Assembly (NCBI GenBank): GCA_012520405.1 | Contig: JAAYOJ010000107.1 | Coordinates: forward strand, 1 to 64,000 | Length of the DNA: 64,000 bases | Direction: 5' to 3' | Source: Peptococcaceae bacterium | GTDB lineage: Bacteria; Bacillota; Desulfitobacteriia; Desulfitobacteriales; Syntrophobotulaceae | Shown: positions 3,345 to 18,556 of the stretch, piece by piece | Position numbering within the stretch: the stretch's first letter is position 1 | Layout: every line of letters starts with the position of its first letter | Notes under the pieces: generated by a model | Databases searched by the model: none | What the model saw: the letters and a program-made list of their open reading frames with translations, nothing else | What the model was told of the DNA's origin: nothing | Position numbers and translations under genes: made by a program

Positions 3345-3419
3345 AAATATTTGAATTGGTGACATTGTAGATAATATCCTTGCATCCGGAATATAATGCA
3401 TGTATTAAGGAGGTACAAC

Positions 3420-4352
3420 ATGGCAAAGGTTTATAAAAGTCTCACCGATCTGATTGGAAAAACCCCGCTGTTAGAGCTTGGAAACTATGCAAAAAAGCAG
3501 GGCCTTGGTGCCACCATAATTGGCAAGCTGGAATATTTCAACCCTGCAGGAAGCGTGAAGGACAGAGTCGCGCTGGCCATGATTGAGGATGCTGAAGCAA
3601 AGGGTCTGCTTTCCCCTGAGTCTGTCATTATTGAGCCGACCAGTGGCAATACCGGCATTGGCCTGGCGTCGGTTGCTACCGCACGGGGATATCGGGTCAT
3701 ACTTACCATGCCGGAGACAATGAGTATTGAACGCAGAAATTTACTGAAAGCCTACGGTGCGGAGCTTGTGCTGACAGAAGGTGCCAAGGGCATGACCGGA
3801 GCGATAGCTAAGGCGGAAGAGCTGGCCAAAGAAATTCCTAAGGCCTTTATCCCCGGTCAGTTCGATAACCCGGCAAATCCCGAGATTCACCGGAAAACAA
3901 CAGGTCCTGAGATTTGGGGGGACACTGACGGAAAGATTGATTTTCTTGTTTCCGCTATCGGTACCGGCGGCACGATTACGGGTACCGGCGAATACTTGAA
4001 ATCTAAAAACCCCAACATAAAAGTGGTCGGTGTGGAGCCGGAAGCTTCCCCTGTGCTCTCCGGCGGTGTCGCAGGTCCCCATATGATTCAGGGAATCGGG
4101 GCCGGTTTTGTCCCCAAGGTTTTGAACACGACGGTCTATGATGAAATCATACCTGTGAAAAACGAGGATGCCTTTGCCGCCGGCAGGGAGCTTTCCAAAA
4201 CAGAAGGGTTACTGGTGGGTATTTCCTCCGGAGCGGCTGTTTGGGCAGCCACTGAGTTAGCCAAGCGACCCGAGAATGCCGGAAAGCTGATAATCGTAAT
4301 TCTGCCCGACACCGGTGAACGCTATCTCTCCACCCCGCTATTTTCCGAATAA
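3420..4352 (+). CDS. cysK: Cysteine synthase A (O-acetylserine sulfhydrylase)
   Basis: 310 aa from the ATG at 3420, which has AAGGAGG at 3407-3413. An upstream in-frame ATG at 3396 would put that Shine-Dalgarno inside the gene, so it is rejected. CysK joins sulfide to O-acetylserine to make cysteine. It shows the PLP lysine in NPAGSVKDR (Lys47), the TSGNTG substrate loop (74-79), the [10 protein letters not shown] phosphate-binding loop and the GISSGAA segment. Length is normal for CysK. It is transcribed divergently from the transsulfuration/Rrf2 operon, which suggests shared sulfur control. Confidence 0.93.
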
Positions 4353-4376
4353 CAATCATAATTCGACAAAATAGCG
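4336..4376 (+). terminator. Hairpin overlapping the cysK stop
   Basis: CGCTATTTT (4336-4344) pairs with AAAATAGCG (4368-4376), and CGAAT pairs with ATTCG inside. No T-run follows directly, so it may be a 3'-end stabilising hairpin rather than an intrinsic terminator. Confidence 0.35.
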
Positions 4377-4418
4377 CAACAAACGCAGAGTCAGGTGCTT
4401 TTTGTTTCTTCAAAGTAC

Positions 4419-4448
4419 TTGACAAAAGCTTTATGTAAATTTTACAAT
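4419..4448 (+). promoter_or_regulatory. Sigma-A type promoter of the aldehyde oxidoreductase operon
   Basis: TTGACA (4419-4424), an 18-bp spacer, then TACAAT (4443-4448). Transcription would begin near 4455, leaving a leader of about 320 nt before the first gene. Confidence 0.7.
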
Positions 4449-4499
4449 ACAGTTAAGGCATAATTATGAAATAATAAAAGAAATATATCACAAACGAGT

Positions 4500-4610
4500 G
4501 GTGGACGAGCCTCTCTTCAAATCCAAAAATATTTGGCCTTTTTATGTCATGACGGTGATTTTAGATTAGGCCATTTAGTTTCTGGGTTAGAGGAGAGTTT
4601 TTCCTTTTTT
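4500..4610 (+). ncRNA. Structured 5' leader with intrinsic terminator (riboswitch/attenuator candidate)
   Basis: CTCTCTTC (4511-4518) pairs with GAGGAGAG (4590-4597) and, after one A-A mismatch, AATCC (4520-4524) pairs with GGGTT (4584-4588). TTTTTCCTTTTTT follows immediately. Nested inside, TGGCCT (4534-4539) pairs with AGGCCA (4568-4573), and the palindrome GTCATGAC lies in the apical part. A terminator this elaborate inside a leader suggests conditional readthrough into the molybdoenzyme operon. It does not match the Moco, purine, fluoride or THF riboswitch signatures as I recall them. Confidence 0.5.
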
Positions 4611-4650
4611 ACCAACTTTTAGAGGATTTTTTACTTTTATTTTTATTTAA

Positions 4651-4731
4651 GCCAAATATTGGCTTTGCAGAAGTGGTATCTTTTAATACTAATTATTTAA
4701 TATTAATTATTTAGTATTAATTATTTTATTT
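4651..4731. repeat. Short hairpin followed by a 14-bp AT-rich tandem repeat
   Basis: AAGCCAA-ATA-TTGGCTT forms a 7-bp hairpin near 4650. It is followed by TAATTATTTAATAT (4690-4703), TAATTATTTAGTAT (4704-4717) and a decayed third copy to 4731. This lies in the leader between the terminator-like structure and the first start codon. Function unknown. Confidence 0.55.
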
Positions 4732-4775
4732 TAATTAACTGGTATCCTTATAATTTATGGAAAGGGTGAAACACA

Positions 4776-7613
4776 TTGAAAAAACTATCCAGAATTATTC
4801 TAACGATCAATGGTGTTCAGCGGCCTGTGGTCTGCGAACCGGACAAGGACAACCTTGCGGTCGTGATTCGCAGGATGGGCCTGACGGGCACCAAGATCGG
4901 CTGCGGTACGGGCGTTTGCGGCGCTTGCTCCGTAATTCTAAACGGTGAGGTGGTCCGTGCCTGTACGAAGAAGATTAGGAATGTTCCTGAATTCAGTGAG
5001 ATTACGACGATTGACGGTATTGGTACTCCTCAACATCTCCATCCTCTGCAGCAAGCTTTTATTACTTATGGCGGGGTCCAGTGTGGCTTTTGTTCACCAG
5101 GCTTTATAGTATCGGCCTACGCTTTGCTGAATCAAAACACTAATCCTACCCGGGAAGAGGTTAGAGAATGGTTCAGAAAACATAGAAATATCTGTCGCTG
5201 CACCGGATATAAACCGATTGTTGATGCCGTAATGGCTGCAGCTAAGGTAATGCGCGGCGAAGCGACCGTAGAAGATATTACTTACGATTTTGCAGGCGAG
5301 AAAGATATTTACGGCTCCAAACATCCAAGACCTTCTGCTTTGGCTAAAGTTTGCGGCTTGGCCGATTATGGTGATGATATCAAACTCAAGATGCCCGAAG
5401 GAACAGCTCATCTGGTTCCTGTTTTATCGGAAGTTCACCATGCTAATATTATTAGCATTGATATTTCTGAAGCGGAAAAAATGCCTGGTGTATATAAGGT
5501 AATGACCGCTAAAGACGTTAAAGGTACGAATAACTTGTTTGTTCCGCCTTTTGTTCCACGCCATAAAGGAAAAGGGGTAACGGACTGGCCGGTTATTGTG
5601 GATAAAAAGATCAATAGGCGCGGGGAAGTAGTCGCTCTGGTTGCTGCTGATACAGAAGAGCATGCTCGCGAAGCTGCTAAAAAAGTTAAGCAGAACTTAG
5701 AAGTGCTCCCGGCTTATATGACTCTGCCTGAAGCGGCTATGCCTAACGCTATCCAGCTTCACGAGGGCACACCTAACCTGTATATGGAACAGCCTGTCTT
5801 TAAAGGAGAAGATCCTGCGGAACTTATTGACAATGCTCCTATTAAAGTAGAAGGAAGTTTCCATTCCCAGCATGAACCACATCTTCCCATTGAACCTGAA
5901 GTCATTCAAGGGTATATTGGTGCTGATGGTATGTATACCCTGCAGAGTAAATCCCAGGCTATTGGAGAGAACAGAGACGACATTGCCGGAGCCTGTGGTA
6001 TTCCCAAAGAAAAAATCCGCATTATTTTGAATGCTGTCGGCGGTTCTTTCGGTTACTCTGTCAGCCCCAATACCAGTGCCTTGGTTATGACTGCTGTACA
6101 GAATCTGGAAATGCCTTGCACCATGACCTTAAAATACGATGAATTTAACCATACTACCGGTAAACGTTCCGCAACCTTTACCAATGGCCGGATTGCCTGT
6201 GACAAGGACGGCAAGATTATTGCAGCGGAATACGATCTTGGTCTCGACCACGGCGCTTACGCTGTGATGGGCGGCAAGATTTTCAATAACTTAGTTTCTG
6301 TCGGTTTCCACGGATACAATATCCCTAATTTCAAAGCTCTGGCTCGCGGCGGCTCCTCTAACCAGGCCTTCAATGCTGCTTATCGTGGTTTCGGTGCTCC
6401 GCAAGTTTATACTGCTACAGAGGCTTTAATTGATATGTTGGCGGAAAAAGCGGGAATGGATCCTTGGGAATTCCGTTATAAGAACGCGGCTCGACCTGGA
6501 GACCTTACCATTAATAGCCGTCCTTACCATGATTATGTCTATCCCAAATTGTTAGAAACAATTAAACCCTACTATGATGATTATAAAGCGAAAGCCGAAG
6601 CCGGTAAGAAAGAAGGACGTAATCTCGGTGTCGGTATTAGCATGGGTGGATTCATTATTACCCTCGGCTTTGTGGATTGTGCCGAAGTTGCCCTTGAACT
6701 CAATCCAGACGGAACTTTTACTCATTACTGCACCTGGCAGGATGTAGGCCAAGGCGGCGATATCGGTGCCCTCACTCATGCCGTGAAAGCACTGGAACCT
6801 CTTGGTGTCAAAGCGGATCAGGTTCGTCTTGTCATGAACGACAGTAAAACCTGTCCGGATACCGGTGTAGCTGCTGCCAGCCGTTCCCACTACAGCGGTG
6901 GTAATGCTACCATCGATGCTGCTAATAAGCTTATGGATGCTATGCGCAAACCTGACGGCACCTACCGCACCTATGATGAAATGGTCAAGGAAGGCATCCC
7001 GACTAAATATGTTGGCCACTTCGACCAGTTTAACATCGGATTGTCCAAGGGCCTTGATCCCAATACCGGAGAAGGTGAAAAGAACCCGACTTATATGTAT
7101 TGCGTTAATACTTGCCTGGTTGAAGTTGATGTCAACACCGGCAAGACCCAGGTCTTAAGCTATACTTGTGTGGCTGACGTCGGTATTATCGGCAACAGAC
7201 TGGCTGTTGAAGGCCAAGCCTATGGCGGCTTGTCTCACAGCATCGGTTTTGCTTTAAGTGAAGATTACCAGGCCTTAGATAAACATGGCAATATGGTGGG
7301 TTGTGGTATCCCGACCATTGACATGATCCCGGATGAAATGAATGTTATTCTCTTAGAGGATAATCCGCGTGAAACCGGACCTCATGGTTCCTGCGGCTGC
7401 TCCGAGTGCTTCCAGTCTTCCGGTCACATGGCCGTGATCAATGCTATCAATGACGCTTGCGGTGTTCGCATTTACGCTTTGCCGGCAACCCCGGACAAAG
7501 TTAAAGCGGCCTTAGAAGCCAAACAACGCGGTGAAGACCTTACTCCTCCGAAGTATTATCTTGGAACAGACTTCGAGGAAGAAATGGAAATGATTAAGAA
7601 CAATCCTATCTAA
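4776..7613 (+). CDS. Molybdenum-dependent aldehyde oxidoreductase (Mop/xanthine oxidase family)
   Basis: 945 aa, single-chain molybdenum hydroxylase without a FAD domain, like Desulfovibrio gigas Mop (907 aa), which oxidises aldehydes to carboxylic acids. Domain order: plant-type [2Fe-2S] (Cys43, 48, 51, 63), helical [2Fe-2S] (Cys103, 106, 140, 142), then two molybdopterin-binding domains with GGSFGY (422-427), YRGFGAPQ (536-543), QDVGQGGD (655-662) and the catalytic glutamate in GCSECFQSS (Glu877, aligned with Mop Glu869). The segment GSCGCSEC before the glutamate is unusually cysteine-rich compared with GASGVGEL of Mop. No in-frame TGA is present, so it is not a selenoprotein. It is the first gene of the operon. 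Substrate unknown; aldehyde oxidation is inferred from Mop similarity. Confidence 0.92.
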   Translation: MKKLSRIILTINGVQRPVVCEPDKDNLAVVIRRMGLTGTKIGCGTGVCGACSVILNGEVVRACTKKIRNVPEFSEITTIDGIGTPQHLHPLQQAFITYGGVQCGFCSPGFIVSAYALLNQNTNPTREEVREWFRKHRNICRCTGYKPIVDAVMAAAKVMRGEATVEDITYDFAGEKDIYGSKHPRPSALAKVCGLADYGDDIKLKMPEGTAHLVPVLSEVHHANIISIDISEAEKMPGVYKVMTAKDVKGTNNLFVPPFVPRHKGKGVTDWPVIVDKKINRRGEVVALVAADTEEHAREAAKKVKQNLEVLPAYMTLPEAAMPNAIQLHEGTPNLYMEQPVFKGEDPAELIDNAPIKVEGSFHSQHEPHLPIEPEVIQGYIGADGMYTLQSKSQAIGENRDDIAGACGIPKEKIRIILNAVGGSFGYSVSPNTSALVMTAVQNLEMPCTMTLKYDEFNHTTGKRSATFTNGRIACDKDGKIIAAEYDLGLDHGAYAVMGGKIFNNLVSVGFHGYNIPNFKALARGGSSNQAFNAAYRGFGAPQVYTATEALIDMLAEKAGMDPWEFRYKNAARPGDLTINSRPYHDYVYPKLLETIKPYYDDYKAKAEAGKKEGRNLGVGISMGGFIITLGFVDCAEVALELNPDGTFTHYCTWQDVGQGGDIGALTHAVKALEPLGVKADQVRLVMNDSKTCPDTGVAAASRSHYSGGNATIDAANKLMDAMRKPDGTYRTYDEMVKEGIPTKYVGHFDQFNIGLSKGLDPNTGEGEKNPTYMYCVNTCLVEVDVNTGKTQVLSYTCVADVGIIGNRLAVEGQAYGGLSHSIGFALSEDYQALDKHGNMVGCGIPTIDMIPDEMNVILLEDNPRETGPHGSCGCSECFQSSGHMAVINAINDACGVRIYALPATPDKVKAALEAKQRGEDLTPPKYYLGTDFEEEMEMIKNNPI

Positions 7614-7703
7614 ACCGGTACGGACCGGCTATAAGTCAGGATAAAACTAGTAGGAAGAATCTTTAGGAAAAAGCTTTTAGAGTAAGATTGTCAAGGAGAC
7701 AGA

Positions 7704-7782
7704 CCAGGAGTTAGGATCTCAATGAGCCTGACTCCTGGCTCCTGACTCCTGGCTCGGCTCCCGATTCCCGACTCCTGGCTTC
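7704..7782. repeat. Intercistronic hairpin and GACTCCTGGCT repeats
   Basis: CCAGGAGT (7704-7711) pairs with ACTCCTGG (7731-7738), with further internal AGG/CCT and CTC/GAG pairing. GACTCCTGGCT-type units recur at 7729-7740, 7743-7754 and 7769-7780 with degenerate copies between. The element lies in the only long gap of the operon (7614-7842). It may modulate mRNA stability or be a dispersed low-complexity repeat. Confidence 0.65.
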
Positions 7783-7842
7783 TTTGCTTATTATAAGGAA
7801 TAGTTGATATTCTGAATTTTTCCAGGAAAGGAATGATGCTAT

Positions 7843-10125
7843 ATGAAGCTTGAGGATGCCACTCGGTATACGGAAAAGTGTTTCAATGGAGAGCCTGCAT
7901 CTTGTTCTTATGCCTGTCCGTTTCACCTGGATATCCGTTCCTTTCTGGAAAAGGTGAGTAGAGGAAGGTGGGTTCCGGCCTATAAAGTGCTGCGCAATGC
8001 CGTAATTTTTCCTGGGATAGTCAGTGTTTTGTGTGACGAACCCTGTCGAGAGCATTGCCAACGCACCTTGCTCGGTGACGAGGCTTTAGCAATGCTTGAT
8101 TTGGAAGCAGCCTGTATCAAGTATGCTAAAAATACCAAACCTGAATTCTTTGCCATACCGCCAAAGTCTGAGCGTGTTGCTGTAATTGGAGCGGGGGTGT
8201 CAGGCTTAGCCTGTGCGCTTAATCTGGCACAGAAAAAGTATTCGGTCACGGTGTTTGAAAAAGAAAGCGGTTGGGGCGGAAAGCTTCCCAATGGAGAACG
8301 GCTTAGTTCTCATCCGCGTTTTGCTGATTTTGACCAAGATATTGCTTTGCAATTTTCTGCTGTGGATGTTGAGTTTCGCTATGGCACGGAAATCAAATCG
8401 CTAACAGAACTCGCCGACTTTGATGCTATTTATATTGCTACAGGTAAGGGTGGAGATTCCTTTGGACTCCTTGCCAGCTGGGATGCAGAGATGTTTACAA
8501 CTTCCGAGCCCAAGGTATTTATGGGTGGTACGCTGTGCGGAGTCTCCAAAATGGAAGGCATTGCCCATAGTGTCCAAGCATCGAAGATAATGGAGGCTTT
8601 CTTGCAGACGGGGAAGGCTTCCTTAGTGAACGCTCAAGTCTATGATAAGAAAAATTGTGAACGTTATTTAAAACATGATGGGGCGGTATCTGTACCGCGG
8701 GTGATTGCTTCTTCTCCCGATGGTTATACTGAAGAGGAGGCCAAAAAAGAGGCAGCACGTTGTTTGTTATGTGATTGTGATTATTGTATAGCTTCCTGTG
8801 AAATGCTGCAGAAATTCCGGAAGAAACCCCATAAAATTGCGGTGGAAGTTGCTACGGATATGCAGGTGACGGGTAATTTAGCCAGCCGTGCTCTTACCAG
8901 ACAGACTTATTCCTGTAATCTCTGCGGTCATTGCAAATCCGTTTGCCCGGAGGATGTTGATATCGGGGCCTTGCTTCAATCTTCGCGTACGGCAAGAAAA
9001 AACGCAGGCGGCGAATCCTATCCGGCTGCCTTTCATGATTTCTGGCTACGAGAAATGGATTTTGCCGTTTCCGAAGGGTTTTTAGCTGCGACCCCCAACG
9101 GAAAAAATGAATGCGAATACGCTTTTTTCCCGGGTTGTCAGCTTGGGGCCTTCAATCCGGATTATGTGCTGAAATCTTACGAATTCCTGAGTAGTAAATA
9201 CGATTGCGGGATTTTGCTTAATTGCTGCGGTGCTCCGGCTTACTGGGCCGGAGATGAGAGTTTGCTGAATGAAAATATGGAAAAAATCAAGCAGGCTTGG
9301 AATGAGATGGGACAACCCACCTTGGTGTTTGCCTGCGCGACCTGTGAGAGTATTTTTAATATGTTTTTGCCCGAAATAAAACGGGTTTCACTTTATGCTT
9401 TATTAGCCGAAGAAGAGGGGATTTCATCCATTCGCCCCTATGATGAAGCCGTGGTTTTTGATCCCTGTAATGCCAGGAACAATCATGGTTTGGAGACCGG
9501 CGTAAGGAAACTTGCCACTGAAGCCGGTATTAGCTTGCATGAATTGAAGGAACCAAATCGTTGTTGTGGTTATGGTGGGCATATTCGCCTGGCAAATTCA
9601 AGTTTGTACGAAGAGATAGCCCAGCACCGGGCTGAGGCCAGTGATAAACCCTATATTGTTTATTGTGTGAATTGTCAGGACGTTTTTGCTCGGCGGGGTA
9701 AGGAATGCAGCCACATTCTGGATCTGGTTTTCGATCTGAAGAAGGGGCTTAAGGTACCCACTTTAGACCAAAAAAGGGCCAACAGTGTGGAGGTCAAAAA
9801 GATTCTGATGAAAAAAGAATGCGGTATTGATTTTGAGCCTGAGACCCATGAATGGGATGGACTTAAACTCCTTATCAGTGATGAAATGCAAAAGGATATG
9901 GAAAACAAGCTAATTTCTGCTGCCGATCTTAAAGAAGCGATCTGGCAGGCTGAAAGTTCCGGATATAAGTTTTATAATGAAAGTGAAGGCTTGTTTATGT
10001 GCAGTATGATCAAGCCGGTAATCACTTATTGGGTTCAGTATAAAGAAATTGCACCCCAAACCTATGAGATTGTCAGTGTCTATTGCCACCGCATCCATTT
10101 CAAGGAGGAGGTCAAACAGCCGTGA
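7843..10125 (+). CDS. FAD-dependent Fe-S oxidoreductase fused to HdrD-like CCG domains
   Basis: 760 aa composite electron-transfer protein. Domains in order: a glutamate synthase small-subunit-type N-terminal Cys region (Cys21, 25, 64, 68, 72), an FAD Rossmann motif VIGAGVSG (114-121), two Cys clusters (CLLCDCDYC from 307; CNLCGHCKSVCP, Cys358/361/364/368), then two heterodisulfide reductase-type CCG segments (NCCGAP at 460-465, RCCGYGGH at 573-580), and a roughly 100-aa C-terminal domain I do not recognise. Mop-type enzymes lack FAD, so this is the likely electron partner of the aldehyde oxidoreductase. Its acceptor (NAD(P)H, ferredoxin, thiol/disulfide) is unknown. The stop overlaps the next start (GTGA). 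Confidence 0.85.
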   Translation: MKLEDATRYTEKCFNGEPASCSYACPFHLDIRSFLEKVSRGRWVPAYKVLRNAVIFPGIVSVLCDEPCREHCQRTLLGDEALAMLDLEAACIKYAKNTKPEFFAIPPKSERVAVIGAGVSGLACALNLAQKKYSVTVFEKESGWGGKLPNGERLSSHPRFADFDQDIALQFSAVDVEFRYGTEIKSLTELADFDAIYIATGKGGDSFGLLASWDAEMFTTSEPKVFMGGTLCGVSKMEGIAHSVQASKIMEAFLQTGKASLVNAQVYDKKNCERYLKHDGAVSVPRVIASSPDGYTEEEAKKEAARCLLCDCDYCIASCEMLQKFRKKPHKIAVEVATDMQVTGNLASRALTRQTYSCNLCGHCKSVCPEDVDIGALLQSSRTARKNAGGESYPAAFHDFWLREMDFAVSEGFLAATPNGKNECEYAFFPGCQLGAFNPDYVLKSYEFLSSKYDCGILLNCCGAPAYWAGDESLLNENMEKIKQAWNEMGQPTLVFACATCESIFNMFLPEIKRVSLYALLAEEEGISSIRPYDEAVVFDPCNARNNHGLETGVRKLATEAGISLHELKEPNRCCGYGGHIRLANSSLYEEIAQHRAEASDKPYIVYCVNCQDVFARRGKECSHILDLVFDLKKGLKVPTLDQKRANSVEVKKILMKKECGIDFEPETHEWDGLKLLISDEMQKDMENKLISAADLKEAIWQAESSGYKFYNESEGLFMCSMIKPVITYWVQYKEIAPQTYEIVSVYCHRIHFKEEVKQP

Positions 10126-10319
10126 GTACTGGGGAAAAAAACTGGAAGTGTGCCAAATGCGATAAGCAATTGGTTCTGAAAAATACGGACTTTTTCTACC
10201 TCGGGCATAAGTTTACCTACGATGTCTTAAATTGTCCTCAGTGCGGCAAAGTATTGATCCCCAAGGAACTAGCCGAGGGTAGAATGGCGGAATTGGAAGA
10301 AGCCTTGGAAGATAAATAA
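10122..10319 (+). CDS. Small zinc-ribbon redox protein
   Basis: 65 aa from GTG 10122, preceded by AAGGAGGAGG (10102-10111) and overlapping the previous stop by GTGA. An upstream in-frame ATG at 10083 would lie deep in the preceding gene and is rejected. Two CxxC pairs (WKCAKCDK and NCPQCGK) about 30 residues apart indicate a zinc ribbon or rubredoxin-like metal site. The C-terminus is a short acidic helix. Small CxxC-CxxC proteins of this kind accompany Mop-type aldehyde oxidoreductases (the DVU_1557-type redox protein, from memory). A role in electron transfer or metal handling is inferred. Confidence 0.75.
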   Translation: MSTGEKNWKCAKCDKQLVLKNTDFFYLGHKFTYDVLNCPQCGKVLIPKELAEGRMAELEEALEDK

Positions 10320-10352
10320 GATTTTCGAATCAGAGAATTAGGAGGGTGACCG

Positions 10353-11480
10353 GTGGGGAAAATCGCAGCGCTGATTCCGGCTGCCGGGTATTCATCAAGA
10401 ATGGGTCTTTTTAAGCCGCTTTTGCCGATAGCATCTTCCCTGGTGCTGGAAAAGCCCATTAAGGCTTTTAGGACAGCCGGGGTAGAGGACATTCTGGTGA
10501 TTACGGGTCATAAAAATTTTTTACTGGCGCCTGTCCTAGAAGGTTTAGGGGTTAAAGCTGTCTATAATTCAAGATTTGACCAGGGGATGTACTCCTCAAT
10601 CCAAGCCGGAGTTGCGGCTTTGCCGGAGGATACAGAAGCTTTTTTTCTTTTGCCGGCAGATTATGCCGTGGTCTCTTCCGCTGTTATTAGCCAAATATTA
10701 GAGAAATACCGGCGGGAGCCACACCAGGTTTTTTATCCCACTTATAATGGGGAAAGAGGGCACCCGCCTTTGATTTCGGCTGAATTGCGGCCTTATATTC
10801 TGGAAGGGGAAGCCGATGGAGGATTGAGAGGGTTACTGGAGAGCATAGTGACGGATTATGCGGAAATTCCAGTGGATGATGAAGGAATTTTACAGGACCT
10901 TGATACCGAGGACGATTACCGCAGTCTGGTCCAAAACCAAACTGGGTTAGCTCCTTATCCCACTCGCAGAGAGTGCGAGGGGGTTTGGCAAAAGTATGAA
11001 ACTCCCCGGCCGGTGATTCTTCATGCGCAGCAAGTAAACAGGGTGGCTTGTACACTCTGTGAATACTTGAACAGTCGGGGTTTTTTGCTTCATACGGCTT
11101 TAGTCCAAGCCTGTGCCTTGTTGCATGATGTGGCTAAAGGTGAAAAACAGCATGCGGCCAAGGGTCGGCAGATAGTGAAAGAGATGGGATATGAGGAGGC
11201 CGGGGAGATTATTGGCTCCCATATGGATCTCCCGAGCAAACACCTTGCCGCTGTCGATGAATATTCTATTCTTTATCTGGCAGATAAATTGGTCCAGGGA
11301 AGTGAGCTTGTTTCTCTGGAAAAGAGACTGGCGGAACAAAGCAAACGTTATGCCCATGATACTTTAGCCTTGACCAGTATGCATGAACGTATGGGAAAAG
11401 CAAGGCAGGTACAGCAAAATATTGAGAACATTCTAAGCATACCTTTAAGCGAGTTGTTTCCCGAACTTGCAAGAGACTAA
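10353..11480 (+). CDS. MobA/MocA-like nucleotidyltransferase fused to an HD domain
   Basis: 375 aa, GTG start with TTAGGAGGG 7 nt upstream. Residues 1 to about 190 form a molybdenum cofactor nucleotidyltransferase-type domain: AALIPAAGYSSRMG (about 5-18), the KPLL lysine, and the metal-binding LLPADYA. Such enzymes attach CMP (MocA) or GMP (MobA) to molybdopterin, and Mop uses the cytosine dinucleotide, so a MocA-like role fits. Residues about 220-375 are an HD phosphohydrolase domain with HDVAK (His258-Asp259) and HxxxGxxI-like helices. The HD partner is not part of standard MocA and could hydrolyse a nucleotide or pyrophosphate product. The activity split is inferred. Confidence 0.8.
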   Translation: MGKIAALIPAAGYSSRMGLFKPLLPIASSLVLEKPIKAFRTAGVEDILVITGHKNFLLAPVLEGLGVKAVYNSRFDQGMYSSIQAGVAALPEDTEAFFLLPADYAVVSSAVISQILEKYRREPHQVFYPTYNGERGHPPLISAELRPYILEGEADGGLRGLLESIVTDYAEIPVDDEGILQDLDTEDDYRSLVQNQTGLAPYPTRRECEGVWQKYETPRPVILHAQQVNRVACTLCEYLNSRGFLLHTALVQACALLHDVAKGEKQHAAKGRQIVKEMGYEEAGEIIGSHMDLPSKHLAAVDEYSILYLADKLVQGSELVSLEKRLAEQSKRYAHDTLALTSMHERMGKARQVQQNIENILSIPLSELFPELARD

Positions 11481-11483
11481 GTT

Positions 11484-12167
11484 ATGAAAAAAACGGTTTA
11501 TTTATTAAGGCACGCCGAGCCGATACACCTTTTCCAAGAAAAATATTATTTAGGGCAGTCTGATCCGCCCTTAAGTGCAAAGGGGAAAGAGCAGGCCCAG
11601 CTGCTTTCTGATTTTTTAAGTACTATTAAGCTTTGTGCAATTTTTAGCAGCGATTTACAGCGGTCGGTGCAAACCGCTCTGCCTATCGCTGAAAAACATA
11701 GCTGTCCCCTCCGGATAATCAAGGAATTAAGAGAGATTAATCTGGGCCGGTGGGAAGGACTCCGGAAAGCAGAGGTTAAGGCTTTATATCCCGGCGAATA
11801 TGAACTGAGAGGGCTGGATTTAGTCTCTTACCGCCCGCCGGAGGGTGAAAGTTTTGCTGATCTGCAGAAAAGAGTGGTCCCTGTTTACCGGGAGATTATT
11901 GATAGTTGTGACGGGGATATCATTATTGTTTCCCACGCCGGGGTAAACCGGGTAATTCTATGTGACTTGCTTGGTGTTCCTTTAGATAATCTTTTCAATA
12001 TTAAACAAGAATATGCTTGTGTGAATGTTATTAACTATTTAGATAAAAAGGGGAGTAATTTTCAGTATGAATATTTACAGCAGCCTTTTAAAGGATCTGA
12101 CCGGCGGCAGGAAAGTTGTCATGGTGACTTCTATGACCAGGGACACCTGTCAAAAGCCAAGAACTAA
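11484..12167 (+). CDS. Histidine phosphatase family protein
   Basis: 227 aa phosphoglycerate mutase-like phosphatase of the CobC/GpmB type. The phosphohistidine motif is LLRHAEP (about 7-13), followed by DLQRSVQTA, the GRWEG segment and the second catalytic histidine in IVSHAGVNR. It starts 3 nt after the nucleotidyltransferase stop. The last 101 nt overlap the next gene in another frame, giving a charged tail (about residues 195-227) not needed by the fold. CobC-like members dephosphorylate nucleotide-loop intermediates. A phosphatase step on a cofactor intermediate or CoA-related compound is possible here. Substrate unknown. Confidence 0.8.
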   Translation: MKKTVYLLRHAEPIHLFQEKYYLGQSDPPLSAKGKEQAQLLSDFLSTIKLCAIFSSDLQRSVQTALPIAEKHSCPLRIIKELREINLGRWEGLRKAEVKALYPGEYELRGLDLVSYRPPEGESFADLQKRVVPVYREIIDSCDGDIIIVSHAGVNRVILCDLLGVPLDNLFNIKQEYACVNVINYLDKKGSNFQYEYLQQPFKGSDRRQESCHGDFYDQGHLSKAKN

Positions 12168-13143
12168 AAAAGATTATTATACTGAAGATCAAATCGAAGA
12201 CCCGAGCTTTGGTTTACAATTGCCGGATGATGTTAGGGAAGGTATTAAACAGTCCTTGCATTCAGGAGAACTCTTGGTGACGGAAAGCAAGGAGCAAACA
12301 AAGGAACTGAATATTATTGAGCCCTTTTTTCCTCAACCCAGGCTTATTGTTTTGGGAGGAGGGCATATCGCTAAACCCGTAACGGAATTTGCGGCCAGAC
12401 TGGGCTTTGCTGTTACCGTAGTGGATGACCGTCTGTCCTTTGCTAATAAGGAACGTTTTCCGCAAGCAGATCAGGTTATTTGCGAAAGTTTCGAGCGCAG
12501 TTTTGATGTACTGAATTTTGATGCCTATACCTATGTGGTGATTGTAACCAGGGGACACAGGTACGATTTGGATTGCTTAAGGCAAGTAATCCAGCGCAAA
12601 TGGGCCTATGCCGGTATGATAGGTTCTCGCAAACGAGTGAAAGGGATTAAGGACCAATTAATAGCTGAGGGTTTTGACCCGGCAATATTGGCCAAGGTCA
12701 ATGCTCCTATAGGTTTGGAGATTGGTGCGGTAACCCCGGAAGAAATCGCTGTTTCTATTCTGGGTCAGGTAATTAGCTATCGCCGACTTCGGGAACCGGC
12801 TTTGGGCCGAGCATCCGCTAAAATCAGCTGGACAGAGTTCGACCGCGAGGTGATCGAAGAATTAAGTAAAGGCAAGGATGATCCCAAAGCTTTGGCTACA
12901 GTTATAATGACCAAAGGTTCTGTACCCAGAAGAGCGGGAGCCAAAATGCTTATTTGGCCGGATGGCAGGATTTTGGGCAGTATCGGTGGAGGATGCAGCG
13001 AAGGTATGATTATTCGCCAAGCGCTGGATATTATTAACGAAGCTAGTTGCACCATCCACAGGATAGATTTAACCGCTGAGATCGCCGAAGAAGAAGGTAT
13101 GGTCTGCGGAGGGGTTATGAAGGTACTGATCGAAGCTCTATAA
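12067..13143 (+). CDS. XdhC-like molybdoenzyme maturation factor with swapped domain order
   Basis: 358 aa. XdhC/CoxI proteins insert and sulfurate the molybdenum cofactor of xanthine oxidase-type enzymes. Here the Rossmann XdhC_C domain comes first (GGGHIAKP, 97-104; VVDDR; GSRKR), while the XdhC_CoxI motif set (GSVPRRAGAKML from 284; GSIGGGCSE about 304-312) is at the C-terminus. The usual order is the reverse. The N-terminus (MNIYSSLLKDLTGGRKVVMV) still looks like the start of a normal XdhC_CoxI domain, which suggests a circular permutation or insertion. The start overlaps the phosphatase gene by 101 nt and has AAGGGGAG upstream. It most likely matures the aldehyde oxidoreductase. Confidence 0.85.
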   Translation: MNIYSSLLKDLTGGRKVVMVTSMTRDTCQKPRTKKDYYTEDQIEDPSFGLQLPDDVREGIKQSLHSGELLVTESKEQTKELNIIEPFFPQPRLIVLGGGHIAKPVTEFAARLGFAVTVVDDRLSFANKERFPQADQVICESFERSFDVLNFDAYTYVVIVTRGHRYDLDCLRQVIQRKWAYAGMIGSRKRVKGIKDQLIAEGFDPAILAKVNAPIGLEIGAVTPEEIAVSILGQVISYRRLREPALGRASAKISWTEFDREVIEELSKGKDDPKALATVIMTKGSVPRRAGAKMLIWPDGRILGSIGGGCSEGMIIRQALDIINEASCTIHRIDLTAEIAEEEGMVCGGVMKVLIEAL

Positions 13144-13174
13144 TCAGCCACGATCAGTCTGACGGAGGATAAAA

Positions 13175-13858
13175 ATGAGCGGCTTGAAGGAAGCTAAGAA
13201 TATTTACGAGCAAGGACTCATGGAACAAGTTATGGGCCGGACCTTAAGGCCGGGAGGGTATAAAATTACGGAAGAAGCCCTGGGCTTATGTGCTTTTCCT
13301 AAAGACGCCGCTATATTGGATATAGGCTGCGGGAGCGGAGCCACCGTACAGCTTTTAAGAAAAAAATATTCTCTGGATGCCCGGGGGCTTGACATCTCTA
13401 AGGAAATGATCAGACGAGGAAAAAATATTTGTTCCGAGCTGCCGCTGGTGCATGGCGATGCTCATAGGCTACCCTTTGCCAATAATGAATTGCAAGGGGT
13501 ATTTTTGGAGTGTAGTTTTTCCCTTTTTTCAGAGCAACAGAGGGTTTTGGCGGAAATAAACAGAGTACTTAAAAAAGACGGCAAAATTGTAATCAGTGAT
13601 TTTTATTATCGGCAAAGGCCTGGTAAAACCAAGCCTGATATTATTGAACTAATAGAAAAATCCGGGTTCAAGGTGGATATATGGCTGGAAAAGTCTGAAC
13701 ATCTTCATCAATTAGTGGCAGATTGTATTCTTAATGATTTTTCCCTGGATCTGTTATGGTGCTGTATGCTGAACAAAGAAGAAAACAAGGGTTGTACTAA
13801 AGAAGAAATAAAAAAATGGAAACCGGGATATTTTTTGCTTATCGCGAGCAAATGTTGA
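13175..13858 (+). CDS. Class I SAM-dependent methyltransferase
   Basis: 227 aa. Motif I is ILDIGCGSG (about 47-55), followed by the acidic DARGLDIS end of strand 2 and VHGDAHRLPF (motif II). This is a UbiE/Methyltransf_11-like fold. It starts with ATG 13175 after a GGAGG site. Position between XdhC and the C_GCAxxG_C_C protein matches the DVU_1556-type methyltransferase of Desulfovibrio aldehyde oxidoreductase loci (from memory). The methyl acceptor is unknown; it could be a cofactor intermediate, a protein or the substrate. Confidence 0.8.
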   Translation: MSGLKEAKNIYEQGLMEQVMGRTLRPGGYKITEEALGLCAFPKDAAILDIGCGSGATVQLLRKKYSLDARGLDISKEMIRRGKNICSELPLVHGDAHRLPFANNELQGVFLECSFSLFSEQQRVLAEINRVLKKDGKIVISDFYYRQRPGKTKPDIIELIEKSGFKVDIWLEKSEHLHQLVADCILNDFSLDLLWCCMLNKEENKGCTKEEIKKWKPGYFLLIASKC

Positions 13859-13895
13859 TTTAGTTTTGGAGTATGGAATAAGGAGGTTTTGGGCA

Positions 13896-14318
13896 ATGGC
13901 AAGCAAAGTCCGACTATATGAGCTGAAGCAGAAAGGGTATTGCTGCAGCCAGATTATTATGAAGGCAGGGCTGGAGGATGCCGGTAAAGAGGACAATCCG
14001 GATTTGGTCCAAGCTATGTCCGGCTTATGCGACGGCTTGCGTACGGGCATGGTGTGCGGAGTTCTTAGTGGCGCGGCTTGTCTTCTCGCTTTGCTGGAAC
14101 CTGAAGATTCTCCGGTGTTAATTAAAGACTTGACGGAATGGTTCCGGGGCGAGTTTGAAGAAAAAAACGGCGGAATTACCTGTGAGGATATTTTGGCCGG
14201 AGACCAGTTAAACCGTACTATTAAATGTCCGAAAATATTAACGGAAACCTACAATATGGCTATGGAAATACTGGAAGCCAACGGGTATGAATTCCCGGAT
14301 TCTTATGTTCCCGGATGA
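13896..14318 (+). CDS. C_GCAxxG_C_C family redox/metal protein
   Basis: 140 aa from ATG 13896, with AAGGAGG at 13880-13886. An upstream TTG (13866) would place that site inside the gene. The protein carries the spaced cysteines of the C_GCAxxG_C_C family: GYCCSQ near the start, LCDGL, VCGVLSGAACLL, ITCEDI and KCPKI. Members of this family are small helical proteins suspected of metal or redox cofactor binding. Location matches the DVU_1555-type protein of aldehyde oxidoreductase clusters (from memory). No biochemical role is established. Confidence 0.78.
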   Translation: MASKVRLYELKQKGYCCSQIIMKAGLEDAGKEDNPDLVQAMSGLCDGLRTGMVCGVLSGAACLLALLEPEDSPVLIKDLTEWFRGEFEEKNGGITCEDILAGDQLNRTIKCPKILTETYNMAMEILEANGYEFPDSYVPG

Positions 14319-14350
14319 ACAAAAAGTAAAAACGGAAAGGAAGAACAAAA

Positions 14351-14743
14351 ATGTTAATTGCGGTTGCTGCCAATGGAGAAACTCTGGAAGATCGGGTTGC
14401 CAAAAGATTTGAGGACAGTACATGTTTACTTATTGTAAATATGGAAGATATGAGTTTTGAGGTTTTTAAAAACCATAGTGCGGGAAGCGGGTCGGGAATT
14501 GATATGGCTAAGATTATCACCGAGAAAGATTGTGAAGCGGTAATAACGGGCAGTATAAAGAGAGAGGCCTTTGAAGAACTGATAGAAACACAGGTTACCC
14601 GTTATAACGGGGCTGATTATACCGCCAGAGAGGCCCTCGACCTCATGGAAAAATATCGGTTGGATCTTGTCCGTTATTATGAAGGTGAGGACCCGGATTT
14701 TCATATGTTACATCGAGGTAGTTGCGATTGTTCCGATCATTGA
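14351..14743 (+). CDS. NifX/NafY-like molybdenum cofactor-binding domain protein
   Basis: 130 aa. The N-terminus MLIAVAANGETLEDRVAKRFEDS and the later CEAVITGSIKREAFEELIE follow the dinitrogenase iron-molybdenum cofactor (NifX/NifB C-terminal) fold, an RNase H-like domain that carries metal clusters. The C-terminus HMLHRGSCDCSDH adds Cys and His residues that could bind metal. No nitrogenase genes are near, so it more likely handles molybdenum for the aldehyde oxidoreductase. The last 22 nt overlap the CoA ligase start region. Confidence 0.72.
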   Translation: MLIAVAANGETLEDRVAKRFEDSTCLLIVNMEDMSFEVFKNHSAGSGSGIDMAKIITEKDCEAVITGSIKREAFEELIETQVTRYNGADYTAREALDLMEKYRLDLVRYYEGEDPDFHMLHRGSCDCSDH

Positions 14744-16089
14744 ATAAAGAAATTGACAAGACTCCTTTAGAAGACTGGATAGCCCGCAAAATCGGTCTCA
14801 AAGCGGGAGAGTTAACCCAGGAAGCCCTTGATACATACCAACTAGCCCAGATTCGCAAAACTATTGCTTGGGCGAAAGAAAAAAGCAGCTTTTACAGGGA
14901 GAGATTCTGTGCTGTGGAGCCGGAGTCTATAACTGATTTTTCCCTTTTTTCAAAGCTGCCTTTTACTTTTCCCCGGGATATCAGGCATAATCCCCAGCGG
15001 CTGGTTTGTACCGGACAGAAAGATATTGCACGCATTGTAACCCTTAAGTCTTCGGGTACCACCGGTCAACCGAAACGGATTTTTTTTACGCCGGAAGACC
15101 AGCAACTCACTATTGATTTTTTTGATACTGGCATGAGAAATTTAGTGGGGCCGGGGGACAGGGTTCTCATCTTGCTGCCCTGGAGGCAGCCGGGTAGTGT
15201 TGGGGACCTATTAAAGACGGGCTTGGAAGGTTTGGGGGCCAAGGCCATTTTGTTTGGGCCGGTGTCCGATGCCGAAGAGGCCGTTAAGATTGCCCTTCAA
15301 TCTAAGGCTAATTCCATGGTAGGCATTCCTACCCATGTCTTGGCCATGGCCCGCAGTAAGAACGGCAAGTTATTAAGCGGGCGCTTAAAAAGTGTTTTAT
15401 TGAGTACGGATTATGTACCTCGCTCCATATGTATAGCACTGGAGAATATTTGGGGATGTAAAGTATTTAACCATTACGGGATGACGGAAATGGGGCTCGG
15501 TGGTGGGGTGCAGTGCCCTGCCCTTGCAGGATATCATTTGAGGGAAGCGGATCTTTATTTTGAAATTATTGATCCGGAAAGTGGCCAGGTCTTAGATGAA
15601 GGGGAAACGGGGGAGATTGTTTTTACTACTCTCACCCGGGTCGGAATGCCTCTTATTCGTTATCGGACCGGAGATTTAAGTCGTTTTATCCCTGGCAAAT
15701 GTCCCTGTGGTACTGTTTTGCGCAGTATGGAAGTTGTTAGAAGCAGAATTGCAGGGCAAATAAAACTTCAGAATCACTCTTTATCTATTGCCGAATTAGA
15801 TGAAGTTTTGTTTTTGTTTGATGAAGTTGTGAATTACCAGGTGAGAATAGACAGGGATTCCGGAATGGACTGCCTATATATAGATATTAAGATGAGCGAA
15901 AACACCCTTGTGAGCAAAGATAAAGATTTTAAGGACCGGATTTGCCGAGCTTTGCGATGCATACCTGCTATCCAGAATGAATTTCCGCTAAGTAAGCAAA
16001 TTGTAATTATAAATTCCGGTAACAGTGTACCCTTCTCCACGGGGACCGGAAAAAGAAGTATTATTGATAACAGATTTAATAATGATTAG
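14722..16089 (+). CDS. AMP-forming CoA ligase, phenylacetate-CoA ligase-like
   Basis: 455 aa adenylate-forming enzyme. ATP motif LKSSGTTGQPKR (108-119), YGMTE (252-256), and the RYRTGD hinge near residue 315 followed by a C-terminal lid domain with a CPCG pair. It resembles phenylacetate-CoA ligases and the DVU_1553-type ligase of aldehyde oxidoreductase loci (from memory). The start is uncertain: TTG codons at 14722, 14728 and 14740 are in frame, with GAGGT at 14715-14719 favouring 14728. It could activate the carboxylic acid made by the aldehyde oxidoreductase, or act in cofactor maturation; the sequence cannot distinguish these. Last gene of the tightly packed operon. Confidence 0.8.
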   Translation: MRLFRSLNKEIDKTPLEDWIARKIGLKAGELTQEALDTYQLAQIRKTIAWAKEKSSFYRERFCAVEPESITDFSLFSKLPFTFPRDIRHNPQRLVCTGQKDIARIVTLKSSGTTGQPKRIFFTPEDQQLTIDFFDTGMRNLVGPGDRVLILLPWRQPGSVGDLLKTGLEGLGAKAILFGPVSDAEEAVKIALQSKANSMVGIPTHVLAMARSKNGKLLSGRLKSVLLSTDYVPRSICIALENIWGCKVFNHYGMTEMGLGGGVQCPALAGYHLREADLYFEIIDPESGQVLDEGETGEIVFTTLTRVGMPLIRYRTGDLSRFIPGKCPCGTVLRSMEVVRSRIAGQIKLQNHSLSIAELDEVLFLFDEVVNYQVRIDRDSGMDCLYIDIKMSENTLVSKDKDFKDRICRALRCIPAIQNEFPLSKQIVIINSGNSVPFSTGTGKRSIIDNRFNND

Positions 16090-16177
16090 CCGGGTTAAAA
16101 TATTTAAGCACTTGCAGGAAAATAGCAAAATATGTGGAAGTTATAAAACAAGTGGAAATTATTAACATGAAATGGAG

Positions 16178-16232
16178 GTTATTAGCACTGAAATAGGGAT
16201 TGTTGGCAATGTAAGGTGAGTTATTAGCACTG
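16178..16232. repeat. Degenerate intergenic repeat
   Basis: GTTATTAGCACTG occurs at 16178-16190 and 16220-16232, with a weaker relative (ATTATTAACATGA) just upstream at 16158-16170. The element lies between the CoA ligase and the PAS protein. No function is visible. Confidence 0.45.
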
Positions 16233-16310
16233 GAAGAAAATTTAGGCAATCGGGGTCGAAAAATCTGGTTTTAAAGTTGGTCAGTGTAAATCCGAAGGAG
16301 GGGTGTTTTC

Positions 16311-16913
16311 ATGAGAGAATTATTTAAGCAAAAATATTTTTTGCAAAGTCTTTTTGATTCTATCCCTGTCTTAACTTTGGTCCTGGACAATGATTCCAGA
16401 GTATGTGCCGCAAACAAAACAGCCAAAGATTTTTTGGGCTGTAAGGAAGACGAGATTTTATTTAACCGCTGTGGTAAGAGTATTAGTTGTCGGCATGCAA
16501 CTGACCACCCCTTAGGGTGCGGTTTTGGCCCGTCACGTAATGAATGTATTATCAAGAAGGCGGTCTTGGCCTCGAGAAAAGAAAAGCTACCCCAACGTTT
16601 AAAAGGAAAGTTAGAATTGTTGCCGGATAAAGACCTAAACGTTATAGTCAGCGTATCCAGTTTTGAATATAAAAAAGATGTTTTTTCTTTGGTAATGATT
16701 GAGGGCATTACATTAATGATTGGACTTGAAGGTTTAATACCCATTTGTGCTGCTTGTAAACGCATTCGGGACGAAAAGGGTTGGAACATGATTGAAAAAT
16801 TCATTGAAGAACATTCGGAGGCTGAGTTTACCCATGATATCTGCCCGGAATGCATTAAGAAAATGTATCCGGAGATTGACCTCGAAGATGATATCCAATC
16901 AATTTGCGGATAA
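16311..16913 (+). CDS. Cys-rich PAS domain protein
   Basis: 200 aa. Residues about 8-130 form a PAS domain (LFDSIPVLTLVLDNDSRV, then ANKTAKDFLG). A cysteine-rich insert (NRCGKSISCRH, PLGCGFGPSRNECI) sits where some PAS domains hold a redox or metal site. The C-terminal GLIPICAACKRIRDEKGW and ICPECIKKMYPE form a four-Cys motif often seen at the C-terminus of PAS-containing sensor proteins. No kinase or output domain is attached. A GGAGGGG site precedes the ATG. It follows the aldehyde oxidoreductase operon after 221 bp and could sense redox state for it. Partner unknown. Confidence 0.78.
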   Translation: MRELFKQKYFLQSLFDSIPVLTLVLDNDSRVCAANKTAKDFLGCKEDEILFNRCGKSISCRHATDHPLGCGFGPSRNECIIKKAVLASRKEKLPQRLKGKLELLPDKDLNVIVSVSSFEYKKDVFSLVMIEGITLMIGLEGLIPICAACKRIRDEKGWNMIEKFIEEHSEAEFTHDICPECIKKMYPEIDLEDDIQSICG

Positions 16914-17233
16914 AATTTGGCGTAATTTATGTTGGTATAATATAAGATAAATAAGTAAAAAATGAGCAAACAGCAGAAAATAAACAAAAAGGGGTATTTT
17001 ATTTAGTTTAACCGTAGTTGTCTTGATTCTTTGTTAAAGTTCTGTTAATATTAATTGGTCTAATATTGGGAATGCTTTATAGAGAGGAAGCGAATGTTTC
17101 CTCTTTATTAAAATTAACATAATATGGAAAATAAAGGTTTGTGTTTTAATTATTAGGGGAAGAATATCCTGGAAAGTAATTGTTCTTAAGCGATATATTA
17201 ATAGTAAGCTAATAAGGCCAAGGAGGAGCAGTA
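16914..17233. other. 320-bp intergenic region before tig
   Basis: AT-rich, without a coding frame I can support. It contains the hairpin listed at 17083-17107 and, just before tig, an AAGGAGGA ribosome site. A TATAAT at about 16936 lacks a well-spaced -35 box. Confidence 0.5.
17083..17107 (+). terminator. Weak terminator-like hairpin
   Basis: AGAGGAA (17083-17089) pairs with TTCCTCT (17098-17104), followed by an interrupted T-rich stretch (TTATT). Confidence 0.4.
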
Positions 17234-18556
17234 ATGGCAGTAAAAATGGAGAAGATGGATAAAAGCAGGGTGCTGTTGGAGATAAGGGTGGAGGCTGAAA
17301 AAGTCTCTGCTGCCTATAGCAGAGCTGCTAAACAAGCCGGTAAAGAAATAAATATTCCTGGTTTTCGCAAAGGAAAAGCACCGAAGCATATAATAGAAAG
17401 ATACGTGGGTAAAGATTATTTAAAGGATAGAGCAATGGAGGAATTAATTAAACCGGCCCTGCTTAATGCCTATCAGGAAACAGAAATTCTCCCTGTTTCC
17501 GCTCCCACAGTAGATGTCGTACAAATGGAGGAAGATTTAGATTTAATTTTTAAAGCCACTGTGGAAGTTAAACCGGAAGTGGAATTAGGGCAGTACACCG
17601 GATTCGAACTGGAAAAGAAAACTGCAGAGGTTACAGATGAACAGGTAGAGGAAGAACTGAAACGTCGGCAGGATAGACATGCTAAACTGATTACTGTTGA
17701 AGATGGTGAAGTCCTGGATCAGGATATTGCGACCATTGATTATGAAGGTTTCATAGATAATGTTCCGTTTGAAGGCGGAAAAGGTGAGGATTTTGACCTG
17801 ACAATTGGTTCCGGGATGTTCATTCCCGGATTTGAGGACCAATTAAAAGGTGCCCGCCCCGGCCAGGAGCTGGAAGTTAATGTCCGTTTTCCTGACGATT
17901 ATCAAAGTGAAGACCTTGCCGGGAAAGACGCTATGTTCAAGGTTAAAGTTAAAGCTATTAAACGCAAGGAACTGGTTCCATTGGATGACGAATTCGCCAA
18001 GGATATTAGTGAGTTCGATACTTTAGCAGAACTTAGAGAAGATATTAAGCAAAAAATGCTCCAAAGCGCTGAACTGAGCATTGAAAACGAGTATCGTTCG
18101 GAAGTGGTTCAGAAAGCTGTTGATAAGGCAAGTGTAGAAATACCTGAGGGAATGATTCAAGGCAGAATAGATTCTATGATGCAGGAAATGGAGATGAGAT
18201 TAGCCTCTCAGGGTATACCTAAGGAATATTATGAGCAATATTTGAATGAAAATGAAGAACAAATTAGGGAAAGTTATAGAGTACAGGCGGTTGAAGGCAT
18301 TAAAACCGAATTAGTGCTGGAAGCGATCGCCAAACAAGAAAATATTACAGCCTCGAATGAAGATGTAGATAAAGAAATTCAAAAATTGGCTGCCCAGTAC
18401 GGGCGCAGTGCTGAAGAACTCAAAACTGCTTTAGAATCCCGGGGAGAACTGGATTGGTTTAAACTAGGGATTGTTACGGATAAAACCATTGATTTTCTGG
18501 TAAATTCCTCAGAAAAAAAGGACTCCTCAGATCAGACGGCGAATAAAGAAGAGTAA
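17234..18556 (+). CDS. tig: Trigger factor
   Basis: 440 aa ribosome-associated chaperone and prolyl isomerase. The ribosome-binding signature GFRKGKAPKHIIE is near residues 42-54, the FKBP-like domain includes VTIDYEG-type sequence and FEGGKGEDFDLTIGSGMFIPGFEDQL (about 177-202), and a long helical C-terminal domain follows. Length is normal. An AAGGAGGA site precedes ATG 17234. It is 36 bp upstream of clpX. The clpP gene that normally lies between tig and clpX in Firmicutes is absent. Confidence 0.95.
   Translation: MAVKMEKMDKSRVLLEIRVEAEKVSAAYSRAAKQAGKEINIPGFRKGKAPKHIIERYVGKDYLKDRAMEELIKPALLNAYQETEILPVSAPTVDVVQMEEDLDLIFKATVEVKPEVELGQYTGFELEKKTAEVTDEQVEEELKRRQDRHAKLITVEDGEVLDQDIATIDYEGFIDNVPFEGGKGEDFDLTIGSGMFIPGFEDQLKGARPGQELEVNVRFPDDYQSEDLAGKDAMFKVKVKAIKRKELVPLDDEFAKDISEFDTLAELREDIKQKMLQSAELSIENEYRSEVVQKAVDKASVEIPEGMIQGRIDSMMQEMEMRLASQGIPKEYYEQYLNENEEQIRESYRVQAVEGIKTELVLEAIAKQENITASNEDVDKEIQKLAAQYGRSAEELKTALESRGELDWFKLGIVTDKTIDFLVNSSEKKDSSDQTANKEE

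Follow-up and report, generated by a model that had tools for sequence, protein, structure and literature searches.

Which of the genes gathered around a molybdenum enzyme serve that enzyme, and at what step, is the question raised by an operon in a 64,000-nucleotide stretch of DNA (the window) from a Peptococcaceae bacterium (GenBank assembly GCA_012520405.1, contig JAAYOJ010000107.1). The enzyme is a Mop-type aldehyde oxidoreductase (AOR); the Desulfovibrio AOR is among the earliest molybdenum-hydroxylase structures. A preliminary description had reported ten same-strand genes around this enzyme, labeled their domains, noted a likeness to the Desulfovibrio vulgaris DVU1551-1559 locus, and proposed dedicated maturation and electron-transfer genes. 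An open reading frame (ORF) scan confirmed ten plus-strand ORFs across 4776-16089, every frame intact, and the domain labels held when checked against Pfam and NCBIfam profiles, with seven window proteins passing NCBIfam cut-offs. Our findings also support the dedicated maturation and electron-transfer genes, and they add a partner that the preliminary description missed: TrsS, a Mop-linked radical S-adenosylmethionine (SAM) protein encoded outside the window. The ten genes are the following.

4776-7613, plus strand: Mop-type aldehyde oxidoreductase, type B (NF045668, score 1153.2, cut-off 1100)
7843-10125, plus strand: flavin adenine dinucleotide (FAD)/Fe-S/CCG oxidoreductase, proposed direct electron acceptor of Mop (NF045663, 682, cut-off 530)
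10122-10319, plus strand: DVU_1557-family zinc-ribbon/redox protein (DUF7479), 65 amino acids (NF045645, 84, cut-off 60; PF24292)
10353-11480, plus strand: MocA-like CTP:molybdopterin cytidylyltransferase fused to an HD domain, DVU_1551 family (NF045665, 410, cut-off 315; PF12804, PF01966)
11484-12167, plus strand: histidine phosphatase, CobC-like (PF00300; TIGR03162, 152.4, below the cut-off of 162.9)
12067-13143, plus strand: XdhC-family chaperone for sulfuration and insertion of the molybdenum cofactor (Moco) (PF13478 at 93-235, PF02625 at 271-332)
13175-13858, plus strand: class I SAM methyltransferase, DVU_1556 family (NF045667, 199, cut-off 155)
13866-14318, plus strand: C-GCAxxG-C-C redox-type protein, DVU_1555 family (NF045669, 129, cut-off 103)
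14351-14743, plus strand: NifX/NafY-like protein (PF02579, 54 bits; no NCBIfam match)
14722-16089, plus strand: PaaK-like adenylate-forming ligase, DVU_1553 family (NF045666, 477, cut-off 300; PDB 4r1l)

Intergenic distances within the operon range from -101 to +33 bp, with the exception of 229 bp between the Mop and FAD/Fe-S genes.

The Operon Is a Variant of a Catalogued Neighborhood

NCBIfam names most of these genes after DVU_1551, 1553, 1555, 1556 or 1557 or after the enzyme, and the accessions are nearly consecutive (NF045663-NF045669, plus NF045645 and NF045646). The neighborhood has therefore already been catalogued, and since the window's members of these five DVU-named families, its FAD/Fe-S protein and its Mop all score over cut-off, the resemblance to DVU1551-1559 noted earlier is real. 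In L065-L070 the genes run, with minor variation, Mop, FAD/Fe-S protein, zinc ribbon, methyltransferase, C-GCAxxG-C-C protein, TrsS, ligase, XdhC, MocA-HD; this order agrees with the DVU numbers provided that TrsS is DVU_1554 and XdhC is DVU_1552, two equations drawn from family names. Compared with that arrangement, the window inserts MocA-HD, phosphatase and XdhC after the zinc ribbon, lacks trsS, carries a NifX-like gene, and has an XdhC that is domain-swapped and below cut-off.

A literature search found no paper explaining the neighborhood and none naming DVU1551-1557; DVU1559 appeared in the literature searched only in the proteomic tables of two studies. The system is real, conserved and functionally unexplained, and NCBI has already named it. 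What the window contains is a variant: TrsS, fused to DUF5714, is encoded elsewhere, its slot is taken by a NifX-like gene, the XdhC domains are swapped, and Mop is of a subfamily whose substrate pocket differs. Described below, and new as far as the literature searched goes, are the genome-level partnership of TrsS with Mop, which is strict and holds even without linkage, the division of Mop into two subfamilies, an acceptor candidate that co-evolves with Mop, and the repeated association of Tes-like proteins with molybdoenzymes.

Most Accessory Families Are Confined to Genomes With Mop

Curated models were run on a single fixed set of 200 genomes from the window's phylum. Mop exceeded its cut-off in 14 genomes, and contig-edge fragments were present in two more (16 in total). 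Every genome with an over-cut-off ligase (11/11), methyltransferase (14/14), C-GCAxxG-C-C protein (9/9) or TrsS (13/13) also had Mop or a Mop fragment, as did all 13 genomes with an FAD/Fe-S protein above 600 bits; four other genomes pass the FAD/Fe-S cut-off, only with neighboring matches in frame. Fisher p values for co-occurrence with Mop were 1e-12 to 1e-20 for the five core families. Below the over-cut-off group, scores dropped from 275 to 231 for the ligase and from 158 to 120 for the methyltransferase. Rather than occurring mostly without a Mop-type enzyme, the accessory families are therefore restricted to Mop genomes.

MocA-HD (seven of eight genomes with Mop or a fragment) and XdhC (five of eight) were less exclusive. 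At L083 (6961-10201), in a genome where Mop does not exceed its cut-off, an X10 molybdopterin-binding gene, XdhC and MocA-HD adjoin another molybdenum hydroxylase, so these three are not exclusive to Mop.

Two Mop Subfamilies

The window Mop consists of two [2Fe-2S] domains and Moco domains and has no FAD domain (Pfam, alignment to 1sij), and it is the sole MoCoBD_1 match in its genome. Its best structure matches are the AORs of D. gigas (1sij, 845 bits; also 1vlb) and D. desulfuricans (1dgj, 834 bits), others being far weaker. It shares with them the domain layout, the Fe-S cysteines, Gln99 and the catalytic Glu (D. gigas E869, here E877), but is 45% identical to the D. gigas enzyme. Mops split into type A (D. 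gigas-like) and type B (window-like), which differ consistently in 49 columns. Type B changes in the substrate pocket include Y535F, F532Y and the loop around Glu869, which reads GASGVGELPLTSPH in type A and GSCGCSECFQSSGH in the window Mop, and by our test the pocket is not of the D. gigas type. Type B Mop would therefore likely have a different substrate range. In the tree, D. gigas Mop nests in the type A clade among Mops from kit-bearing genomes. In the class of genome G200, searched for a D. gigas or D. vulgaris genome, the best Mop match reached 72% and none was identical.

L075 and L006 (the distal molybdenum enzyme) show a third Mop-like subfamily, which shares 38% identity with D. gigas Mop; in L075 its gene is grouped with a phosphatase, a methyltransferase and a ligase. 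Mop-like matches L047-L064 (25-31% identity) were left out as other molybdenum hydroxylases.

TrsS, a Partner Encoded Outside the Operon

When the ORFs near Mop were clustered, a radical SAM family emerged at 22 loci; we identified it as TrsS, listed as a radical SAM selenoprotein in a review (PMC13188914, citing Haft & Tolstoy 2025 mSystems). An in-frame TGA at a conserved Cys of TrsS in L138 fits the "(seleno)protein" name. Unlike the DVU_1551-1559 arrangement, the window operon has no trsS; the gene sits on another contig of the same genome.

L089 (G000:C189, 6916-11912), other contig: TrsS (733 amino acids, 632 bits) with the molybdoenzyme gene that it follows

The C terminus of this protein is fused to DUF5714, and the gene comes after those for a dimethyl sulfoxide (DMSO)-reductase-type molybdoenzyme and an Fe-S protein. 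The genome of L003 has the same arrangement, and DUF5714 genes adjoin TrsS in L012, L074 and L131. The DUF5714 part of the fusion has a further match, at 127 bits, to the selenoprotein family MbdU. TrsS matches (E<=1e-60) were found in 32 of 35 further Mop genomes, over cut-off in 22 genomes; some are partial or below cut-off, and they are often off-locus. On a common genome set the TrsS tree follows the Mop type A/B split (support 0.90). This off-operon partner points to a step, so far unstudied, in how such enzymes are made or run.

TrsS is homologous over its full length to the archaeal tetraether lipid synthase (Tes) GDGT-MAS (7tol, 413 bits) and, in an alignment compared with PMC9433317, keeps the ligands of three metal sites: rubredoxin CX2C-X20-CX2H, [Fe4S4]N CX3CX2C plus His, and radical SAM CX3CX2C. 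It differs in scoring below the Tes cut-off (NF045702, 362 versus 450; E ~5e-108), in its restriction to Mop genomes, in the occasional in-frame TGA and, here, in the DUF5714 fusion. The Pfam domain at its N terminus, PF23545 (HMPTM), is named for a pterin methyltransferase.

A second Tes-like gene of the same genome lies in a molybdoenzyme operon (L090, G000:C49, 3114-14249) with two DMSO-reductase-family proteins, the first closest to acetylene hydratase, and Fe-S, NrfD-like, MoeA, X10-like and MoaA proteins (MoeA, MoaA and NrfD named by eye). This grouping recurred, whole or in part, in all five genomes examined for that form (L090, L142-L145); no molybdoenzyme neighbors were seen for the more distant Tes-like genes L146-L154. 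We tentatively suggest that these bacterial Tes-like proteins, TrsS and the DMSO-reductase-operon form alike, are dedicated molybdoenzyme partners rather than lipid makers, acting with the methyltransferase, ligase and C-GCAxxG-C-C protein in maturation or activation, though we would not call this the probable outcome. A role of bacterial Tes homologues in making branched glycerol dialkyl glycerol tetraether (brGDGT) lipids, proposed by Zeng et al. (PMC8941075), is unconfirmed (PMC11868695), and the homologues serve as tentative markers for brGDGT producers (PMC8941075, PMC11868695). Because TrsS matches the Tes model yet occurs only with Mop in our samples, some inferences of brGDGT producers may be unsafe.

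Methyltransferase, C-GCAxxG-C-C Protein and Ligase

In the class of G200, as in the window's phylum, Mop, the FAD/Fe-S protein and the zinc ribbon are followed by methyltransferase, C-GCAxxG-C-C protein, TrsS and ligase, in that order. A genome that has a Mop of each type (L072, L073) carries two sets of FAD/Fe-S protein, zinc ribbon, C-GCAxxG-C-C protein, TrsS and ligase, one beside each Mop, and this pairing speaks for a role dedicated to the enzyme; the same genome has one XdhC match and one weak MocA match.

The ligase sequence contains SSGTTG, RTGD and a C-terminal Lys (GTGKRSI), and the protein falls below the cut-off for the phenylacetate-CoA ligase PaaK (TIGR02155, 148 versus 646); some relatives lack the C-terminal domain. 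Neither the ligase nor the methyltransferase tree tracks the Mop type A/B split. Since they cross the Mop subfamilies, the trees argue against substrate-specific product activation, and the earlier assignment of the ligase to that task is not supported.

The model of the C-GCAxxG-C-C protein is all-helical (predicted local distance difference test, pLDDT, 91), and searches of the PDB returned no sequence relative and no fold match at E<=0.001. For the acetone-induced C-GCAxxG-C-C protein of Desulfococcus biacutus, the portion of the literature available gave no link to Mop.

The NifX-like gene occupies the slot usually held by trsS. It belongs to the window operon, as had been described, but it lies outside the conserved set, found in only four of the 40 loci that extend 9 kb or more downstream. 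Metal delivery by its product, proposed earlier, is unproven, the evidence being a PF02579 domain.

A Candidate Electron Acceptor for Mop

In 26 of 26 type A loci with enough sequence, the start of the FAD/Fe-S gene lies no more than 840 bp downstream of Mop; in 30 of 33 such type B loci it lies within 600 bp. Its tree distances follow those of Mop closely (rho 0.94; 0.86 within type A and 0.90 within type B; 38 common genomes), compared with 0.69 for TrsS, 0.42 for the ligase and 0.41 for the methyltransferase in the same genomes; as distance pairs are not independent, these values compare families and are not significance tests. The zinc-ribbon gene overlaps the FAD/Fe-S gene by 4 bp, and in L018 the zinc ribbon is fused to the FAD/Fe-S C terminus. 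PDB sequence matches cover only residues 3-207, an Nfn/GltD-type N-terminal part, and in a fold search the model resembled NfnABC and EtfD (mean pLDDT 80, predicted template modeling score 0.63).

PMC10223205 describes Desulfovibrio AOR as lacking a flavin domain and flavodoxin as its assumed acceptor. Because the enzyme has no flavin domain and flavodoxin is a stand-in, the FAD/Fe-S protein is likely the direct electron acceptor of Mop and, we infer, a better candidate than flavodoxin. It offers a directly testable alternative to an assignment made so far from in vitro and docking work.

Two further arrangements were observed. In L077, a second FAD/Fe-S C-terminal half and a second zinc ribbon follow the first pair, in a duplication-like manner. 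In L133, L138 and L140, a small protein that resembles the FAD/Fe-S C-terminal domain and carries a twin-arginine-like leader adjoins TrsS, and in two of the three a ligase is also alongside.

Cofactor Genes

MocA-HD, phosphatase and XdhC fit cofactor making. Published work gives MocA and XdhC roles with molybdenum hydroxylases (PMC2997495), and the window resembles maturation systems of the xanthine dehydrogenase (XDH)/PaoABC/PucA type in placing both alongside such an enzyme; compared with these, it adds the HD domain and the phosphatase. The accessible part of the literature on XDH/PaoABC/PucA-type maturation yielded no counterpart of the methyltransferase, ligase, TrsS or C-GCAxxG-C-C protein. 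The HD domain is on MocA in most loci and on the phosphatase in L022, L023 and L029, a mobility that links HD, MocA and phosphatase. The nearest family of the phosphatase is the alpha-ribazole phosphatase CobC, whose cut-off it does not reach. The start of XdhC is uncertain (12067 or 12121-12133), and the protein scores below the NF045664 (XdhC_rel_AOR) cut-off (295 versus 350). Its domains are swapped, Rossmann then CoxI, an order that, among 21 kit XdhCs with readable order, is common only to the window and L003 and unlike the 19 others.

What the Module May Do

We propose, with moderate confidence, that the operon is a self-contained anaerobic molybdenum-hydroxylase system with its own acceptor, cofactor genes and a second Mop-restricted module. 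Mop would hydroxylate an aldehyde at a sulfurated molybdenum on one pterin cytosine dinucleotide, and two electrons would exit via its two [2Fe-2S] clusters, as family knowledge and the residues checked predict. The FAD/Fe-S/CCG protein and the zinc ribbon would accept them and substitute for the absent flavin domain, a step suggested by gene order, co-evolution and domains. MocA-HD, with the phosphatase, would make the cytosine dinucleotide and clear by-products (the HD and phosphatase roles are putative), and XdhC would hold, sulfurate and insert the cofactor, in keeping with family knowledge and domain-swap evidence. For the methyltransferase, C-GCAxxG-C-C protein, ligase and unlinked TrsS, we infer a second module in Mop activation or maturation, which may act via a transient group or small molecule and would involve neither product activation nor a permanent pterin change. 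A well-known enzyme may thus depend on about four unstudied proteins.

Several points weigh against this proposal. Type B loci L008, L015 and L040 have no FAD/Fe-S gene within 600 bp, the flavin bound to the FAD/Fe-S protein is predicted, and in vitro, according to PMC10223205, electrons of D. gigas AOR pass to flavodoxin. The curators' families were built from this neighborhood, so the cut-offs may be partly circular, and genes confined to Mop genomes would also be expected if Mop acted as one enzyme of a pathway. The ordinary cofactor of D. gigas Mop makes maturation by covalent change less likely, provided that D. gigas, here placed by bracketing only, has the kit. A freely shared product fits poorly with the separate module copies in the genome that has two Mops.

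Among explanations of the module, we rank Mop activation or maturation first, a shared pathway second, and lipid synthesis and pterin tailoring last. In a shared pathway, Mop, ligase, methyltransferase, TrsS and C-GCAxxG-C-C protein would form one biosynthetic or catabolic route, the ligase activating the acid that Mop makes from an aldehyde intermediate; the strict mutual dependence of Mop and module in the 200 genomes, the retained adenylation motifs, and the full-length resemblance of TrsS to a C-C bond-forming enzyme agree with such a route. We nevertheless consider it rather doubtful, as the module is common to two Mop subfamilies with different pocket residues, ligase and methyltransferase ignore the subfamily split, some ligases lack the C-terminal domain, and PMC10223205 describes the D. 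gigas enzyme as a general aldehyde oxidoreductase.

Lipid synthesis, with TrsS as a bacterial Tes joining acyl chains while Mop and its partners process lipid aldehydes or acids, would account for the GDGT-MAS match and the retained metal ligands and accords with the brGDGT proposal for bacterial homologues. It appears improbable given the sub-cut-off Tes score, the restriction of TrsS to Mop genomes, the unconfirmed brGDGT role, and the gene neighborhoods in the window's genome, where both kinds of Tes-like gene adjoin molybdoenzymes and not lipid genes. Equally improbable is alkylation or methylation of the molybdopterin of Mop by TrsS and the methyltransferase, to which the name of PF23545 and the location of TrsS and a Tes-like protein next to molybdoenzymes and Moco genes point. 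The pterin methylase assignment of MJ0619 was not corroborated, and pterin methylation by TrsS was set aside because that enzyme was reassigned as a lipid synthase (PMC9433317). Moreover, the available text of PMC10223205 gives the D. gigas cofactor as ordinary pyranopterin cytosine dinucleotide and mentions no modification; because D. gigas Mop falls within the kit-bearing clade, the pterin is unlikely to be changed permanently, and the cofactor tailoring proposed in the preliminary description is disfavored. Activation or maturation of Mop remains our preferred role for the module.

Surroundings of the Operon

An Rfam scan of 3000-17300 gave zero matches, hence no Moco riboswitch at gathering score. 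A consensus scan identified one possible promoter between cysK and mop.

4419-4448, plus strand: possible promoter, TTGACA-18-TACAAT, 11/12 consensus positions

The gap between the Mop and FAD/Fe-S genes contains, at 7718-7780, three imperfect copies of a 23-nucleotide repeat (GACTCCTGGCT core), above chance in the window. Directly upstream of the operon (399-4352) lie genes, named by eye, for an Rrf2-type regulator, a PatB-like lyase, a Met/Cys gamma-lyase-type protein and cysteine synthase, all of which recur in L003; possibly, these cysteine and sulfur genes supply sulfur to the adjoining sulfurated enzyme. Downstream of the ligase, a short PAS-domain protein is encoded at 16311-16913, and L003 has one too.

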